Source: Microbacterium sp. MYb72
GTDB taxonomy: Bacteria > Actinomycetota > Actinomycetes > Actinomycetales > Microbacteriaceae
Assembly: GCF_002979415.1 (NCBI RefSeq)
Contig: NZ_PCOT01000010.1
Coordinates: forward strand, 1 to 64,000
Direction of reading: 5' to 3'
Length of the DNA stretch: 64,000 nt
Part shown: piece after piece, positions 15,991 to 26,840 of the stretch
Numbering within the stretch: the first letter of the stretch is position 1
Layout: each line of letters opens with the position of its first letter
The notes under the pieces: model-generated
What the model was told of the DNA's origin: nothing
The model's database searches: none
Seen by the model: the letters and a program-made list of their open reading frames with translations, nothing else
Made by a program: the position numbers and the translations under genes

Positions 15991-17253
15991 TCAGCGTGCG
16001 GGAAGCACGTCGTCCAGGTGGGCGCGGAGCTGCACGGCGACGTCCACCGCGTCGCGGTCGTAGAGCCACTGGTACTGCAGGCCGTCCCACAGGGCGATGA
16101 GCCAGATCGCCTCGCGCTCGGGGTCGCGATGCTCTGGCAGGTCGCCGTCGAGCTGAGCGAGCCGGAACACCTCGGTGAAGTAGTCCAGGCTGCGCTCGAA
16201 ACGGCGGATGAAGTAGTCGTGGGCGGGGTGGCCTGCGGGCACGGCCTCGCACGAGAGCACCGCGTACACCTCGATGAGGCCGGGTTCGACCTCGGCGTTG
16301 TGCGCGGCGCCCGCGGGCATCCCGCGCAGGAGGTCGGCCGCGCGGCAGGGGGTCGTCGCGTGGTCCTGGAGGCGGATCGCGTCGTCGCGTTCCATGAGCA
16401 CCGCGCTCAGCAGCGCCTCCTTGGTCGCGTAGTGGTGCAGCAGCGTCGACTTCGACACCCCCACCGCCTCAGCGATGTCGCGCAGGCTGGTGTCTCCGTA
16501 TCCGCTGCGGGCGAAGAGCTGCGTGGCGTCGACGAGGATCTGCGCTCGACGTCGGCGGCCGGCCGCGTAGCCGGCCTGGTCCTCGTCGGCGAGGCCGCTG
16601 AGCGCCAGTTCGGGAAGAGGGCCCGACGGCTCGGCGGGCGCTTCGGGCTCCTCGGGGTCGCGCCATCCGACCGGCGTCGCCCACAGCCCTTCCCGCTCTT
16701 CGAGCATCTCCACGACGTCGACGCGCTCCGGGAGGTACTGCGCCATGAGCTGCAGGCCGTCCCACCCGGCCATGTGGCGGATCGTCTCGCCTTCGAGCTC
16801 GCGATCCGCGGAGATCACGCCGTGGTCCACGGCATCCTGCATCGCGTCGACCGTCAGCTCGCGCATGGTGGCGTAGCGCTCGCGCATCCGCTCGTGAGCG
16901 GGGTGGGCCGGGGCCGACGCCTCGCCGGTGAGTGCGGCGTACAGCTCCAGGTAGCCGGGGGTCTCCGCGTTGCGGGTGGCGAGCTCGGACAGCACGAGGG
17001 ACCCCGGCTCGGCGGCGGCGGTGAGGACGCTGACGGCCTCGGCGTTCTCCTCCTCGAACTGCGCGACGACCTCGGCGAGCAGGTCGTCCTTCGAGGCGAA
17101 GTGGCCGAGGAGACCGGGATGACTGACGGATGCCGCGGCGGCGATGTCGCGAAGCGAGGTGGAGCGGTACCCCTGGGCGACGAAGAGCTCGCGGGCAGCC
17201 GTGAGGATGCGCTGCCTCGTGGCAGCGGCACGAGCATGCCGGGTGTTCGTCAT
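15991..17253 (-). CDS. double-headed TetR family regulator (two fused TetR domains)
   Basis: A 420-residue protein, about twice the usual TetR length, containing two complete units. Unit 1 has its helix-turn-helix at about residues 10-60 (RILTAARELFVAQGYRSTSL, RDIAAAASVSHPGLLGHF). Unit 2 begins near residue 228 with ILVDATQLFARSGYGDTSL and RDIAEAVGVSKSTLLHHY. Each is followed by its own helical ligand/dimer domain ending in a similar WDGLQ segment. The ATG at 17253 has GGGAGG eight bases upstream and is preferred over an extended start. It is divergent from a sugar transporter/GH3 operon, with two operators between. It probably represses that operon until a sugar binds. Confidence 0.9.
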   Translation of the reverse strand: MTNTRHARAAATRQRILTAARELFVAQGYRSTSLRDIAAAASVSHPGLLGHFASKDDLLAEVVAQFEEENAEAVSVLTAAAEPGSLVLSELATRNAETPGYLELYAALTGEASAPAHPAHERMRERYATMRELTVDAMQDAVDHGVISADRELEGETIRHMAGWDGLQLMAQYLPERVDVVEMLEEREGLWATPVGWRDPEEPEAPAEPSGPLPELALSGLADEDQAGYAAGRRRRAQILVDATQLFARSGYGDTSLRDIAEAVGVSKSTLLHHYATKEALLSAVLMERDDAIRLQDHATTPCRAADLLRGMPAGAAHNAEVEPGLIEVYAVLSCEAVPAGHPAHDYFIRRFERSLDYFTEVFRLAQLDGDLPEHRDPEREAIWLIALWDGLQYQWLYDRDAVDVAVQLRAHLDDVLPAR

Positions 17254-17285
17254 CGCATCCTCCCAGGACACTCTATCCTCGCTCA

Positions 17286-17327
17286 TTACCAATCGGTCGA
17301 GATTCACTTACCAAACGGTCGAGATTC
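17286..17327. promoter_or_regulatory. twin operators for the double TetR regulator
   Basis: TTACCAATCGGTCGAGATTC (17286-17305) and TTACCAAACGGTCGAGATTC (17308-17327) differ by one base and start 22 bases apart, about two helical turns. Each contains a short dyad ACCAANCGGT. They lie between the divergent regulator and transporter genes. Confidence 0.75.
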
Positions 17328-17390
17328 GTGTATCGTCGAGTCCGCGCCGATCGCGGAAGACCGGCGGAACCTTGCCCGAAAGGATCTCCC

Positions 17391-18689
17391 ATGACAGAGC
17401 TGTCATCGGCTGCGAACGCCGCAGCCGCCGGAACCACCGGCTTCAAGCTCCCCGGAACCACCCCCGAGAAGACCCCCCGCGGCTATACGCCCGGTCTCGC
17501 CGCGGTGAACTTCGGCGTCTACCTCGCCCTGCTCACCCCGGTCATGGTCTCGATGGCCTTCAAGGTCCAGCACCTCGACCCGACCAACACCGAGGGGAGC
17601 CTCGGCCTCGTGATGGGCGTCGGCGCCGCATTCGCCCTCGTCGCCAACCCGCTCGTCGGGCGCCTCTCCGACCGCACCACCTCGCGCTGGGGGATGCGTC
17701 GTCCGTGGATCCTCGGCGGTTCGATCGTCGGTCTCGGCGGGTTCGCCCTCATCGGCGCCGCGTCGTCGGTGTGGATGGTGCTGCTCGCCTGGTGCCTGGT
17801 GCAGACCTCGATGAACGCGGTCCTCGCCGCAGCGAACGCCACCCTGCCCGACCAGGTGCCCGTCTCCAGCCGCGGCAAGGTCTCCGGTCTCGTCGGCATC
17901 ACCACCCCGATCGGCATCCTCGCCGGCAGCTTCCTGGTGAACTTCCTCCCCGGCGACTTCGAGCGCTTCGTGGTCCCGGGCGTGATCAGCCTGATCCTCG
18001 CCATCGTCTTCGTGGCCATCCTCAAGGACCGCGTGCTCACCGAGAAGCCCGCCGAGCGCTTCACGATCGGCATGTTCTTCGGCTCCTTCGTCTTCAACCC
18101 GCGCAAGCACCCCGACTTCGGCTGGACGTGGCTGACCAAGTTCATGGTGATGTTCGGCTACGCGGGCATCGCGACCTTCCTGCCGCTCTACCTCGTCACC
18201 AAGTTCGGCCTCGACGAGCAGGGCGCCGTCGGCATCATCCTCGCCGCCAACCTCGCCTCGATGGCGGCCATGGCCGTGTCCTCGCCCCTCGGCGGGTTCC
18301 TCTCCGACAAGATCGGCAAGCGACGCCCGTTCGTCGCCGTCGCCGGCGTGATCATGGTCGTCGGTCTCGTGATCCTCGCGATCGCCCCCAGCATCCCGGT
18401 CGTGATCATCGGCCAGGCCATCATCGGCCTCGGCGCCGGCTCGTTCTTCTCGGTCGACCTCGCCCTCGCCACCGAGGTGCTGCCGAACCCGGACGACGTC
18501 GCGAAGGACCTCGGCGTGCTGAACATCGCCAACGCCCTTCCGCAGTCGATCGCCCCCGCCGTCGCCCCCGGCATCATCGCCCTGGGTGCCGCGACCCCGC
18601 TCGGCGGCTATCCCACCTGGTACCTGTTCGGCGCGGTCGTCGCGCTCGCAGGCGCCGTGCTCGTCTACCGCATCAAGGGAGTCAAGTGA
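17391..18689 (+). CDS. MFS transporter, probable glycoside importer
   Basis: A 432-residue inner-membrane protein with about 12 hydrophobic helices. The loop between helices 2 and 3 is NPLVGRLSDRTTSRWGMRRPW, and GKVSGLVGITTPIGILAG and GGFLSDKIGKRRPF follow, resembling MFS and GPH-type sugar carriers. The ATG has AAAGGA upstream. Two bases separate its stop from the GH3 glycosidase start, so the pair form one operon. Import of an oligosaccharide or glycoside that the GH3 enzyme then cleaves in the cytoplasm is the obvious reading. The twin operators upstream suggest substrate induction. Confidence 0.88.
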   Translation: MTELSSAANAAAAGTTGFKLPGTTPEKTPRGYTPGLAAVNFGVYLALLTPVMVSMAFKVQHLDPTNTEGSLGLVMGVGAAFALVANPLVGRLSDRTTSRWGMRRPWILGGSIVGLGGFALIGAASSVWMVLLAWCLVQTSMNAVLAAANATLPDQVPVSSRGKVSGLVGITTPIGILAGSFLVNFLPGDFERFVVPGVISLILAIVFVAILKDRVLTEKPAERFTIGMFFGSFVFNPRKHPDFGWTWLTKFMVMFGYAGIATFLPLYLVTKFGLDEQGAVGIILAANLASMAAMAVSSPLGGFLSDKIGKRRPFVAVAGVIMVVGLVILAIAPSIPVVIIGQAIIGLGAGSFFSVDLALATEVLPNPDDVAKDLGVLNIANALPQSIAPAVAPGIIALGAATPLGGYPTWYLFGAVVALAGAVLVYRIKGVK

Positions 18690-18691
18690 CG

Positions 18692-20452
18692 ATGTCCGAA
18701 CGGAACGAACGCCCCTGGCTCGACGCCGATCTGCCCGTCGACGAGCGCGTCGAGCTGCTGCTCTCCGAGATGACCCTCGAGGAGAAGGCCGGGCTCTTCT
18801 TCCAGACCATGATCGTGATGGGCGAGGGCGGTGAGCTCTCCGAGGGCGACGCGAACTTCGGCATCCCCTCGAACCGCGAGTACGTGGTCGGCCACCACAT
18901 GAACCATTTCAACCTGCTCGGCGTCGCGCCGAAGGCGAGCGACATCGCCGCCTGGCACAACAGGCTGCAGGAGCTCGCGGCATCCACTCGCCTCGGCATC
19001 CCCGTGTCGATCTCGACCGACCCGCGGCACTCGTTCAGCGACAACCCCGGCGCGACGATGTTCGCGGGGCCCTTCTCGCAGTGGCCGGAGCCTCTCGGTC
19101 TGGCGGCCACGCGTGACGCCGCGCTCGTCGAGCGCTTCGGTGACATCGCCCGCCAGGAGTACACGGCGGTCGGCATCCGCGTCGCTCTGCACCCGCAGGT
19201 CGACCTCGCTACCGAGTCGCGCTGGGCCCGGCAGCTGCAGACCTTCGGCGAGGATGCCGCCCTCGCCGGTGAGCTCGGGGCGGCCTACGTGCGCGGCTTC
19301 CAGGGCGAATCGTTCGGCCCCGGCTCGGTCTCCACGATGACCAAGCACTTCCCCGGGGGCGGTCCGCAGAAGGACGGCGAGGACCCGCACTTCGACTACG
19401 GGCGCGAGCAGGTCTACCCCGGCGACAACTTCGAGCACCACCTCCTTCCGTTCGAGGACATCTTCGCCGCCGGCGGTCGCCAGATCATGCCCTACTACGG
19501 CATGCCGGTCGGCACGCAGTATGAGGAGGTCGGCTTCGGCTTCAACAAGGGCGTGCTCACGGGGCTGCTCCGCGAGCGGTTCGGATTCGACGGCATCGTC
19601 TGCACCGACTGGGGTCTGGTCACCGACCAGCCGATCATGGGCACGGACTTCGCCGCGCGCGCCTGGGGCGTCGAGCACCTCACCCCCGCCGAGCGCATGG
19701 TGAAGATCCTCGACGCCGGCGCCGACCAGTTCGGGGGCGAGAACGAGACGGAGCTGCTGATCGGCCTCGTGCGCTCGGGAGAGGTCGCGGAGGCTCGTCT
19801 CGACGTCTCCGCGCGTCGCCTGCTGCGCGAGAAGTTCGAGCTCGGGCTCTTCGAGGACCCCTATGTCGACGTGGATGCCGCGGACGCCATCGTCGGCTCC
19901 GCGGAGTTCCGCGCGGCGGGCGAGCAGGCGCAGCGCGCCTCGGTCGCGGTGCTGTCGAATGACGGGGTGCTTCCGCTGCGGACGGGGCTGAAGCTCTACG
20001 TCGAGGGCATCGCGCCCGAGGCGGCGGCGCGCTACGGCGAGGTCGTCGCGACGCCCGCGGAGGCGGATGCCGCGATCCTGCGTCTGCAGGCCCCGTACGA
20101 GCAGCGCGCCTCGATGTTCGAGAACTTCTTCCACGCGGGCTCGCTCGACTTCCCGGAGGACGTCATCGCCCACGTCGCCGAGGTCGCGGCATCCGTCCCG
20201 ACCATCGTCGATGTGTTCCTCGACCGCCCCGCCATCCTCGGACCGATCGTGAATGCCGCAGGCGCTGTCGTCGCGAACTGGGGCGCGGGCGCCGAGGCGC
20301 TGCTCGACGTGCTCACGGGCGCCGTTCCCGCGACGGGGAAGCTGCCGTTCGACGTGCCGAGCTCGATGGCCGCTGTCGAGGCGTCGCGGCCCGACGTCCC
20401 GTTCGACACGGCGGACCCGCTGTTCCGTTTCGGGCACGGTCTGTCCCTGTAA
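18692..20452 (+). CDS. glycoside hydrolase family 3 protein
   Basis: A 586-residue glycosidase without a signal peptide, so cytoplasmic. The GH3 (alpha/beta)8 domain contains RLGIPVSISTDPRHSFSDNPGATMFAGPFSQWPEPLGLAAT, TKHFPGGGPQKDGEDPHFDYGR, and the nucleophile motif IVCTDWG with Asp306. The C-terminal alpha/beta sandwich (about residues 405-586) is short and lacks the Fn3-like tail of many beta-glucosidases, ending LPFDVPSSMAAVEASRPDVPFDTADPLFRFGHGLSL-like. Specificity (glucoside, xyloside or N-acetylglucosaminide) cannot be read from sequence by eye, although no NagZ-type KH(F/I)PG..GD..H.D loop in its classic form is present. Co-transcribed with the MFS carrier. Confidence 0.9.
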   Translation: MSERNERPWLDADLPVDERVELLLSEMTLEEKAGLFFQTMIVMGEGGELSEGDANFGIPSNREYVVGHHMNHFNLLGVAPKASDIAAWHNRLQELAASTRLGIPVSISTDPRHSFSDNPGATMFAGPFSQWPEPLGLAATRDAALVERFGDIARQEYTAVGIRVALHPQVDLATESRWARQLQTFGEDAALAGELGAAYVRGFQGESFGPGSVSTMTKHFPGGGPQKDGEDPHFDYGREQVYPGDNFEHHLLPFEDIFAAGGRQIMPYYGMPVGTQYEEVGFGFNKGVLTGLLRERFGFDGIVCTDWGLVTDQPIMGTDFAARAWGVEHLTPAERMVKILDAGADQFGGENETELLIGLVRSGEVAEARLDVSARRLLREKFELGLFEDPYVDVDAADAIVGSAEFRAAGEQAQRASVAVLSNDGVLPLRTGLKLYVEGIAPEAAARYGEVVATPAEADAAILRLQAPYEQRASMFENFFHAGSLDFPEDVIAHVAEVAASVPTIVDVFLDRPAILGPIVNAAGAVVANWGAGAEALLDVLTGAVPATGKLPFDVPSSMAAVEASRPDVPFDTADPLFRFGHGLSL

Positions 20453-23052: not shown

Positions 23053-23300
23053 CGTTGCCTCCTGAGGTGTTTGCATGACGACGCTGCTCCGGAGGGGGAA
23101 CAGCGCTCGCGAACGCGTGGACGAGAACCATACGGCATCCCCGTCACAATCCTTCACTTCTGAAGTTTTCTGTGGATCCGCTGGACATTCGGTGAGGTGT
23201 ACCGGAATACTGACATGGCATGCGCTCTGTCGACTCGATGTCGATACCTGGGGAGGGCCTTGTGACGCGAACGAAGTTCTGCATCACACGGGAGAGGCGA

Positions 23301-26300
23301 ATGAAGAACATTGAGGGGAAGACCCTGCGGAGACGCAGGGCAATCGGAGGGGGCATCGCCGCGGCAACCGCGGGCGCTGTCATCCTCACCAGCGCGCTGG
23401 TGCCCATGGGCGCCACTGCCGCACCGAGCGATGATTCCGAGGCACTCGGCCAGATCATCCGCACCGAGCTGCTCGGCGGAGACATCCTCGATGTCTCGCA
23501 GGCCGTCAGCGGGAATCCGAGCGACATCGGGCCGGAGATCACTCCGCTCAACGTCACTCTGCTCCAGGGGCTGACCGTCGATCTCGGCGGCGGCCTCCAG
23601 CTTCCGCTGATCTCGGGTCCGGGTGGCGCAGGCCTCCTCGACCTCGGTCAACTCGGCGTGCTCAACTCGTACGCGGGGTCGCCCACGGCGAACACCTCGA
23701 CGGCCAGCGCCGGTGCGATCAGCCAGGACGGCACGATCGCCACCGACATCAACAACCCCGGCGCCTACGGCAACGCGAAGCTGAACCTGACCGACGTGCT
23801 CGACCAGCTCGGTGTCGCGGGGATCACCGATCAGGTCGTCGACAACCTCGGCATCGAGCTCGGCGCGATCGCCTCGACCGCGACCGCCACGGGCACCGCG
23901 TCGGACGTGACCTTCGCTTCGGAGTACACGGTCGCGGACCTGGAGCTCAACGTCTCGAGCCCGCTCGTCGGCACCGTCGCGACCTCGCTCGGCGGCGTCC
24001 TCGGCGGCGTCGGCGACACGCTGGACGCGGCCGTCGGCACCGGCGGTGTCCTCGACTCCGTGGTCAGCGCCGTCAACCTCAACCTCGGTGTTCCGGCCGT
24101 CCTGCAGGTGCAGATCGGCGGCGGAACGATCGCGATCGACGGGCTCGACGCGGCGATCACCGCCGCGACGAACACCCTGATCAACGAGCCGCTGGCCGAC
24201 CCCAACGGAATCGTCTCGATCAACCTCGCGAACGGCCTCGTCTCGGTCGACCTCGCGAAGATCGTCAACGGGCCTGCGGCGACCGACCTCAACGGTCTCG
24301 ACCCGAACACGCTCGTCCTCGACGACACCACGATCACGGCGATCACCTCCGCGGTCACCGCGGCCCTCGGGACGCTGACCACCAAGGTCACGACGGTCGT
24401 CACCGACCTGATCAACAACCTGAGCCTCCACATCGAGCTCGGCGCGCACGTCACCGCGCTCCTGCTGAACGCCGATGTCGACATCACCGTCGACGTGAAG
24501 CTCGGTCAGCTCACGGGCGCGATTCCCGGGAGCCCGGTCGTCGGCGTCGACGGAGATCTGCTGGGCATTCCGCTCGGCGGCGTTCTCTCGCTCGTCACGA
24601 CGCCGGTGATCAACCTGCTCACGACCACGCTCACGCCGGTCATCAGCACGCTGCTCACCACGGTCACCAGCGGTCTCGCCCCGGCGCTCGACGGCATCCT
24701 CAACCCGGTCGTCGCCGCGCTGAGCCCGCTGTTCGACGCGCTGAACGAGGTCGTCGAGATCACGATCAACGAGCAGGAGGAGCCGGGAGTCCTCGGCGCC
24801 GAATCGTTCACGGTCAACGCCATCAGCTTCGAGCTCCTGCCAGGGCTGGGTGCGCTGAACCTCGACCTCGCCTCCTCCACGGTGCGCGCGGCCGAGATCG
24901 CGGCGGTCGACCCGACGGTCGATGCGCAGGATCCGGTTCAGGCCGGAAGCAACCTGCCGGTGGTCGGTGCGAACTGGGTTCCCGGATCCACGGTGACCCT
25001 CACGCTGCGCAACGCCTCGAACGACACGATCGGCACGCCTGTGACGTTCACGGTCGAGGCCGACGGCAGCTTCCCGGCGAACACCGTCTACGCGATCCCC
25101 GCGGGCACCGACGTCGGAACCGACTACGTGCTGACCGCGGCTGACGACGAGGACCCGCAGAACGTCGCGACCGACACGGTCTCGATCACCGCGGGCGGCG
25201 GCGGAGACGTGAACACCAACGCGGCGGCTTCGGCATCCGCGTCGGCAGACGCGACCGCGAGCGGCGACCCGGCAGCGCAGGCTGCGGCACAGGCTGCGGC
25301 TCTCGCCGATGCGACGTCCCAGGCTTCGGCTGCGGCGACGGCGAACGCCGACCAGGCCGCGAAGGCCGCGGCGACGGTCACCGCAGACGCCTCGACCAAC
25401 GCCTCGGCGGACTCGACCTCGGCGGCGAACGCTCAGGCGGCGGCTGCTGCTCAGGCATCCGCTCAGTCGAATTCGGCGGCGACGACGCTCGCGGACGCGA
25501 ACTCCTCGGCTTCGTCGAAGGCTGCGGCGACCGCTACGTCGTCGGCCAACGCGTCGCAGGAGGCCTCGACCAACGCGAACGCCGCGGCATCGGCATCCGC
25601 CTCGGCGAACGCCGACGTGTCCAGCTCGGCTGTGGCTCAGGCCGCGGCTCAGGCGGCGGCGTACACCTCGACCGACGCGAACGCATCTGCGAGCGCGGCG
25701 ACTGACTCGGACGCGATCGCGGCTGCAAAGGCTGCGGCCACCACGACCGCATCGACGGCGGCAACCGCGGACGCGACCTCGGCCGCGAATGCGAACGCTG
25801 CGGTCGCTGCTCAGGCTGCGGCTCTGGCCAATGCGTCCACCAACGCAGCTGCGTCGGGATCTGTCACGGGCGATCAGGACACGAACGCATCCACGGCATC
25901 CCAGGCTGCGGCCATCACCAACGCGTCGACCAACGCCTCCGCGAACGCGGTCGCCGAGGCGAGCGCATCGACCGACCCGGGAGCGCAGACGCAGGCGTCC
26001 ACCAACGCATCGGCAGAGGTGAACACCAACGCATCGGCATCGGCAGCTGCGTCGGCCCAGGCGGACAACGACAACAACGCGGCGGCTCAGGCTGCTGCGG
26101 TCGCTGCTGCACAGGCGAACGCAGACACGAAGGCGAGCGCGAAGGCGACGGCCAACGCCACCGCCGCGGCGCAGGCCGCAGCAACGGCTCAGGCTGAGGC
26201 GGGAGCGTCGACCAACGCATCGACCGATGCCACCAGCGAGACCAACGCCCGTGCGGCTGCGGCTGCGCAGTCGTCGGCCGAGGCTGACAGCTCGCAGGCC

Positions 26301-26840
26301 GCTTCGGCTCAGGCCCAGGCCAATGCCTCGGCTGCGGCATCCGCTGCTGCCAACGCGAACGCGTCGACCGAGGCCTCGGCCGCGGCTGCCGCCGATGTGA
26401 AGGCGTCTGCCTCGACGAACGCGAACGCCTCGGCGGCCGCGAACCCGCAGGGCAAGCTCGGCATCACGATCAAGTCGCCGGTCCTGGAGCGCGGCCAGCA
26501 GCAGACCGCTGTCGGCACGGGCTTCAAGCCGGGCGAGGTCGTCACCGGCGTGATGAACTCCGACCCGCTGGCGCTGGGCACCCAGGTGGCCAACGCTCAG
26601 GGCACGGTCACGTTCACGTGGGCGATCCCGGCCGGCACCGACCTCGGCACGCACACCGTCACGCTCACCGGCCCCGAGTCGGGTAGCGTCGCGGGTACGT
26701 TCAAGGTCGTGGCCACCGGCCTCGCCGCCACCGGCGGCACGGCGCCCAACGGCTGGATCGTTCTCGGAGCCCTGCTCCTGATGTTCGGTCTGGGTACGGC
26801 GCTGGTCGCACGCAAGCGCGCGACGGCCGCAGCAGAGTAA
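23301..26840 (+). CDS. giant Ala-rich cell-wall surface protein (choice-of-anchor G-like) with LAXTG signal
   Basis: 1,179 residues. A basic start and signal peptide (about residues 1-40) precede a domain of about 550 residues rich in repeated L-N-L-x-V-x strands, like choice-of-anchor G proteins. Next come a small beta domain (about 545-635), a long low-complexity Ala/Ser/Asn/Thr region (about 637-1050), another beta domain (KLGITIKSPVLERGQQQTAVGTGF) and the sorting signal LAATG at 1141-1145, a hydrophobic helix and RKR. LAXTG is the class E sortase type. An alternative GTG at 23262 with GGGGAGGG would lengthen the n-region by 13 residues. No sortase is in the window. Followed by DUF5819 and HTTM genes. 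Confidence 0.85.
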   Translation: MKNIEGKTLRRRRAIGGGIAAATAGAVILTSALVPMGATAAPSDDSEALGQIIRTELLGGDILDVSQAVSGNPSDIGPEITPLNVTLLQGLTVDLGGGLQLPLISGPGGAGLLDLGQLGVLNSYAGSPTANTSTASAGAISQDGTIATDINNPGAYGNAKLNLTDVLDQLGVAGITDQVVDNLGIELGAIASTATATGTASDVTFASEYTVADLELNVSSPLVGTVATSLGGVLGGVGDTLDAAVGTGGVLDSVVSAVNLNLGVPAVLQVQIGGGTIAIDGLDAAITAATNTLINEPLADPNGIVSINLANGLVSVDLAKIVNGPAATDLNGLDPNTLVLDDTTITAITSAVTAALGTLTTKVTTVVTDLINNLSLHIELGAHVTALLLNADVDITVDVKLGQLTGAIPGSPVVGVDGDLLGIPLGGVLSLVTTPVINLLTTTLTPVISTLLTTVTSGLAPALDGILNPVVAALSPLFDALNEVVEITINEQEEPGVLGAESFTVNAISFELLPGLGALNLDLASSTVRAAEIAAVDPTVDAQDPVQAGSNLPVVGANWVPGSTVTLTLRNASNDTIGTPVTFTVEADGSFPANTVYAIPAGTDVGTDYVLTAADDEDPQNVATDTVSITAGGGGDVNTNAAASASASADATASGDPAAQAAAQAAALADATSQASAAATANADQAAKAAATVTADASTNASADSTSAANAQAAAAAQASAQSNSAATTLADANSSASSKAAATATSSANASQEASTNANAAASASASANADVSSSAVAQAAAQAAAYTSTDANASASAATDSDAIAAAKAAATTTASTAATADATSAANANAAVAAQAAALANASTNAAASGSVTGDQDTNASTASQAAAITNASTNASANAVAEASASTDPGAQTQASTNASAEVNTNASASAAASAQADNDNNAAAQAAAVAAAQANADTKASAKATANATAAAQAAATAQAEAGASTNASTDATSETNARAAAAAQSSAEADSSQAASAQAQANASAAASAAANANASTEASAAAAADVKASASTNANASAAANPQGKLGITIKSPVLERGQQQTAVGTGFKPGEVVTGVMNSDPLALGTQVANAQGTVTFTWAIPAGTDLGTHTVTLTGPESGSVAGTFKVVATGLAATGGTAPNGWIVLGALLLMFGLGTALVARKRATAAAE
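25211..26450 (+). repeat. coding low-complexity Ala/Ser/Asn/Thr repeat region
   Basis: About 410 codons made almost only of GCN, TCN, AAC, ACC and GAC, giving irregular units such as NASTNAS, AQAAALA and ASASANA. The units are degenerate rather than exact, so this is a protein stalk-like repeat, not an array of identical DNA repeats. Confidence 0.85.

Follow-up and report, generated by a model that had tools for sequence, protein, structure and literature searches.

The window analysed here is a 64,000-nucleotide stretch of DNA from Microbacterium sp. MYb72. At positions 15991-17253, its reverse strand carries a gene for a protein of 420 amino acids (plus stop) that unites two TetR regulators in one chain. 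TetR units are ordinarily separate proteins that pair as dimers. The open reading frame (15994-17253, reverse strand) begins with an ATG at 17253. A longer version with a GTG start at 17307 was rejected because this codon would fall between the two DNA boxes described below and lies outside the part conserved in relatives. Pfam TetR_N (PF00440) matches two stretches of the protein (110.9 bits against a cutoff of 24; whole-protein E-value 2.4e-32), and TetR_C_6 matches it with 40.2 bits (cutoff 27). The reading frame and the duplicated TetR_N match bear out the original prediction, made from the letters of the window, of a 420-residue chain with two full TetR units.

Head 1 comprises residues 1-192 (16678-17253, reverse strand), with its best TetR_N stretch at residues 16-62 and model helices at residues 2-190. 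Its helix-turn-helix (HTH) occupies residues 33-53 (17095-17157, reverse strand). Head 2, delimited by Pfam, sequence comparison and the structure model, comprises residues 227-420 (15994-16575, reverse strand) and carries its HTH at residues 256-276 (16426-16488, reverse strand). A variable linker, residues 193-226 (16576-16677, reverse strand), joins the two. Conservation was measured in an alignment of 42 sequences, consisting of 41 of the 51 named loci (full-length) and the window protein. Mean column identity is 0.887 and 0.876 in the HTHs of heads 1 and 2, compared to 0.697 and 0.753 in their respective ligand-binding parts and 0.501 in the linker. The lowest pLDDT block of the AlphaFold2 model (61, residues 221-230) is also found in the linker region.

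The HTH segments of the window protein are unlike each other, as had been claimed, reading SHPGLLGHF in head 1 and SKSTLLHHY in head 2. These head-specific recognition helices recur across 34 fused proteins, mostly as SHPGLL.HF in head 1 and SKSTLLHH[YF] in head 2; exceptions are found in divergent representatives such as L195, L201 and L207. A few copies of the fused gene are interrupted, by a frame break in L126 and by in-frame stops in L197 and L203.

The forward strand carries a divergent operon of two genes. The first (17391-18689) encodes an MFS transporter (Pfam MFS_1, 8.4e-38), and the second (18692-20452) a beta-glucosidase-like GH3 glycosidase (Glyco_hydro_3, 7.9e-38) that resembles solved beta-glucosidases (8.4e-189 to PDB 9ul7, 'beta-glucosidase'). 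A search for other fused TetR genes near GH3/MFS operons had been proposed, and such genes are indeed found there: of the 51 named loci, 49 have a divergent GH3 gene and 45 a divergent MFS gene. Four loci (L115, L117, L121 and L124) have GH3 without MFS and still carry at least one box. Within the short flank covered at 17 loci in other genera, MFS is present at 10 and GH3 at 4. The published text available for Paenarthrobacter ilicis (PMC10174432) lists MFS and GH3 genes with neighbouring numbers, named as a putative rebaudioside C transporter and glucosidases, and this naming makes a plant glucoside a reasonable guess for the inducer. Farther along the window, an open frame of 1206 amino acids (23220-26840, forward strand) is by eye very rich in Ala/Ser/Asn repeats, and its hydrophobic, basic C-terminus resembles that of a surface-anchored protein.

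The 137 bp between the start codons of tetR and the MFS gene house two 20-base boxes. Box 1 (17286-17305, forward strand) is distal from the MFS promoter, towards tetR; box 2 (17308-17327, forward strand) overlaps the putative -35 element of this promoter. They are direct repeats that differ at one base (95% identical) and start 22 bp apart, precisely the arrangement first described for this divergent promoter. With up to three mismatches allowed, they are the sole two matches in the 64-kb window, and 100 shuffles yield none. They are likewise the sole matches to a 19-base pattern in the whole 3.9-Mb genome when up to one mismatch is allowed. Chance is ruled out by the retention of these boxes in other species.

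The opening of box 2, TTACCA (17308-17313, forward strand), is the putative -35 element. The putative -10 element, TATCGT (17331-17336, forward strand), follows it after 17 bp. A TA...T hexamer is present 17 bp after the TTACCA of the promoter-proximal box in 61 of 68 loci of the genus. A consensus promoter scan of the intergenic region found none, with the putative -10 element scoring below threshold, and the assignment of both elements therefore rests on conservation. At three loci (L064-L066) that lack MFS and have GH3 directly divergent, a box and a -10-like element are retained.

A position weight matrix (PWM) built from upstream regions of the genus gives the box consensus a.TTACCAatCGGTCGrgwTTCa. 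At a cutoff of 11, a box is found in 68 of 70 upstream regions, all of which are distinct in sequence: 59 have two boxes, nine have one, and two (L073 and L077) have none. Each of the 59 pairs is spaced at 22 bp, and no box was found on the opposite strand in the 70 regions at this cutoff. Loosening the cutoff to 8 yields 61 pairs, 60 of them at 22 bp and one weak pair (L074) at 21 bp. Letter shuffles give 0.05 matches per 70 regions, even at a cutoff lower than 11. Natural promoters with one box include those of L064, L065, L066 and L076.

Because the matrix was trained on the same genus regions that it scored, regions outside the genus provide the fair test. In these, which took no part in the training, boxes occur in 18 of 23 upstream regions (ten with one, seven with two and one with three), compared to 0.01 matches per 23 regions in shuffles, and the spacing is 22 bp in nine of nine cases. 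The box is absent from several loci in other genera. Two loci counted as lacking a box upstream, L190 and L206, have two and one, respectively, in a scan of the whole locus; the L190 pair is again spaced at 22 bp. The three boxes of L189, in another genus, follow one another at 22-bp steps, with the third copy scoring 8.4. By eye, L191, also in another genus, has a third box at a 22-bp step that is below the cutoff.

Individual boxes have no dyad. Their symmetry score is at most 0.39 over 125 predicted sites. Two candidate centres inside the box, one between TTACCA and CGGTCG and one at about the midpoint of the 21-bp box, were tried, and neither is palindromic; the second had been prompted by TACCAA.C, a half-site seen in single-headed relatives. 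An assignment of heads to box halves by covariation was also dropped. Base 16 of box 2 varies with residue 50 of head 1 (G versus R/K), A being found in 31 of 35 cases and G in 24 of 28. Base 1 of the box, however, divides just as sharply with this residue (among 35 cases, C in 28 and G in 7; G in all 28 of the others). The covariation with base 16 may thus reflect shared ancestry.

The boxes are tightly associated with the fused gene on a genomic scale. The exact 19-base pattern has 57 matches in 149 genomes of the genus, and 54 of them are at the fused locus. It is present at this locus in 33 of the 37 genomes with a fused gene, and it occurs in two of the 112 genomes without one. In one of these two, the match belongs to the same operon, truncated where the contig ends. 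The three remaining sites consist of this contig-cut MFS-GH3 locus (G046), which was counted apart because its contig ends before tetR, a site within a long open frame (G027), and a site just outside one (G081). The last (G081:C1:684540; L233 near 3041) adjoins a 954-residue open frame on its start side and is a possible second target in that genome. The concentration of 54 of 57 exact sites at the fused locus indicates that the regulator is local and dedicated to this locus, and that any wider regulon is small or absent.

Within the genus, 69 of 295 genomes encode relatives of the fused protein at E-values up to 1e-60, at 71 places, 70 of which were analysed (the one in G250 was omitted). Almost all relatives with a name in the genome collection belong to Microbacterium. 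In the same family, 19 of 398 genomes have matches at 1e-45, and three of these belong to the genus of the window. The other 16 contribute 17 loci from ten other genera, all with two HTHs. Six further loci with two HTHs come from three other families of the same order (f9, f10 and f12). In a sample of the class, 18 genomes outside the order match over head 2 only, and each of the 11 loci read there has one HTH. A tree of heads was built from 34 head-1, 34 head-2 and 45 single rows, the 34 fused loci being a selection of those retrieved. The head-2 rows form one clade (100/97). The head-1 rows need three changes, and two long-branched single TetRs, flagged as unsafe, sit among them; head 1 may nevertheless have a single origin. 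The tree fits one old fusion that was retained in several lineages.

AlphaFold2 models the single 420-residue chain with a pLDDT of 90.8 and a pTM of 0.90. The best solved match to the fold of this model is Mce3R of Mycobacterium tuberculosis (PDB 9b7y), with a Z-score of 19.7 and an rmsd of 7.1 over 348 residues spanning 5-418. Single TetR chains reach Z-scores of at most 14.2, with an rmsd of 2.3 over 184 residues. According to the available text of the Mce3R report (PMC11667970), this protein is a double TetR of solved structure, in which one chain forms an asymmetric pseudo-dimer that binds a non-palindromic 25-bp site, and 204 double-TetR proteins are predicted in actinomycetes. The novelty that had been implied for the fused architecture is thereby lost, since fused chains that read asymmetric sites are of a known kind. 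Foldseek gives TM-scores of 0.46/0.49 and an rmsd of 11 between the model and Mce3R, TM-scores only a little above the 0.38-0.39 of single heads, which indicates that the heads are not placed just as they are in DNA-bound Mce3R. A conformational difference is one possible reason for the loose superposition of the model. The chain may still adopt the asymmetric intramolecular fold of Mce3R-type double TetRs, in which the units share one four-helix bundle.

The fused protein probably acts locally to repress the divergent MFS-GH3 operon, with one pseudo-dimeric chain on each asymmetric box, chains side by side, and release by an inducer. By itself, the 420-residue chain would adopt the fold of a TetR-like pseudo-dimer whose two HTHs differ, and both heads of one chain would occupy one box. 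This agrees with the suggestion that one chain might form an intramolecular dimer on an asymmetric site, which is supported by the Mce3R-like single-chain model, the dyad-less box and the distinct, conserved HTHs. Two chains would lie next to each other on the two boxes in the same orientation and, as 22 bp is about two helical turns, on the same face of the DNA. Box 2 holds the putative -35 element and spacer of the MFS promoter, such that its occupancy would exclude RNA polymerase; repression is the natural reading of this position. Box 1, located towards tetR, could serve autoregulation and add affinity, and the fused TetR probably represses itself too. A beta-glucoside imported by the MFS protein, or the product of its hydrolysis by GH3, would plausibly release the repressor.

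The strictness of the 22-bp spacing points to contact between adjacent chains, but the same regularity could also be maintained by helical phasing or by common descent. In a tentative extension of the model, which we hold to be somewhat doubtful, the chains form a polar head-to-tail array with one chain per 20-bp box, and the strict 22-bp repeats, numbering one to three in a fixed direction, reflect direct contact between chains. If so, the strength of repression would depend on how many boxes are present, a control a symmetric TetR dimer cannot exert directionally.

Other ways of matching two heads to two boxes must be considered. Two chains could assemble symmetrically, with head 1 paired to head 1 and head 2 to head 2, and the resulting dimer could grip both boxes. 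Pairs of boxes at fixed spacing at 59 of 70 genus loci are what such a complex would use, and the single-chain prediction is compatible with it, being blind to pairing between chains, including a domain-swapped dimer. A symmetric complex needs inverted half-sites, however, whereas the boxes repeat directly, lack a dyad, and none lies on the opposite strand in the genus. Loci with one box (nine of the 70 genus loci and ten of the 23 from elsewhere) or three (L189, and by eye L191) fit it no better. Panagoda et al. weighed the same model for Mce3R and, in the published text available (PMC11667970), found that this protein adopts an asymmetric fold. We therefore regard symmetric assembly as unlikely. 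The related proposal that two chains bridge both boxes finds no support as a requirement, since relatives have one, two or three boxes and one box looks like one unit. It is also improbable that one head only reads DNA while the other has a structural or sensory role, with each box read through homotypic contact between two chains. The box half TACCAA.C does resemble AATACCRAAY, the palindrome half-site of single-headed relatives, and the other half is unlike it. Yet both HTHs are equally conserved and mutually different, and the three conserved blocks of the box extend over 20 bp, exceeding one half-site.

The role of the protein at these boxes could also be different from that of a repressor. 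Box 1 is upstream of the -35 element, the usual position for an activator, but box 2 covers the putative -35 element and spacer with the -10 element directly behind it, as expected for a repressor. In addition, most characterised TetR proteins repress, according to the available text of PMC3511530, and activation of the operon is accordingly quite improbable. A very improbable alternative is that the boxes serve another regulator and merely adjoin the fused gene. Binding by the fused protein is a prediction, and the box overlaps a promoter that others might use; the near-exclusive co-occurrence of box and fused gene among the genus genomes argues against this. Repression by one chain per box remains our preferred reading.

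The fused TetRs found in this genus, elsewhere in its family and in three further families of the order look new as a separate family, and a search of open-access literature found no paper on the double TetRs of this locus or on such box arrays. They apparently constitute a second natural TetR pseudo-dimer beside Mce3R, seemingly unrelated to it, in harmless soil bacteria. Close single-headed relatives keep a palindromic operator, and this makes the transition from a symmetric to an asymmetric regulator and operator, a long-standing question, accessible to testing. Natural arrays of one, two and three boxes at fixed spacing offer graded material on which cooperativity could be tested, as could the use of directional operators in synthetic biology.

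Several known systems invite comparison. Engineered single-chain Tet transactivators carry two TetR units per chain that work as a dimer, as described in the accessible part of PMC1797012. They are man-made and use TetR copies on tetO, whereas the protein studied here is natural and has diverged heads and an asymmetric site. Single-headed relatives from the same genome and class, for example G000:C9:46248-46811, are at most 39% identical to head 2. By eye, both heads bear the PGL..Y, HPAH and DGLQ hallmarks of their subfamily. This one-headed protein has nine orthologues (L155-L163) with the near-palindrome GAATACCRAAYNNNRTTTGGTATT upstream, whose symmetry score is 0.88 compared to 0.39 or less for the fused-TetR box. 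These nine TetRs are good symmetric counterparts to the fused protein.

The closest parallel is Mce3R, which is both the best structural match and the best sequence match in the PDB. Each protein has two different TetR units and two HTHs in one chain, and each has two non-palindromic sites in a divergent promoter region (about 25 bp in Mce3R; predicted here). Mce3R is autoregulated, according to the text available in PMC11667970, as is proposed for the fused protein. Their sequence likeness is confined to the HTH regions. Against the M1 and M2 units of Mce3R, respectively, the scores are 25.7 and 20.5 bits for head 1 and 29.9 and 16.8 bits for head 2, mainly over the HTH. Orthology is unsupported, as both heads score higher against M1 in this pairing test (the tree of heads was built without Mce3R). 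The whole-chain geometry of the model also differs, with an rmsd of 7.1-11 Å. The sites of Mce3R are unequal and 53 bp apart, whereas those described here are direct repeats that start every 22 bp, and Mce3R controls a lipid regulon where the fused TetR would control a glycosidase operon.
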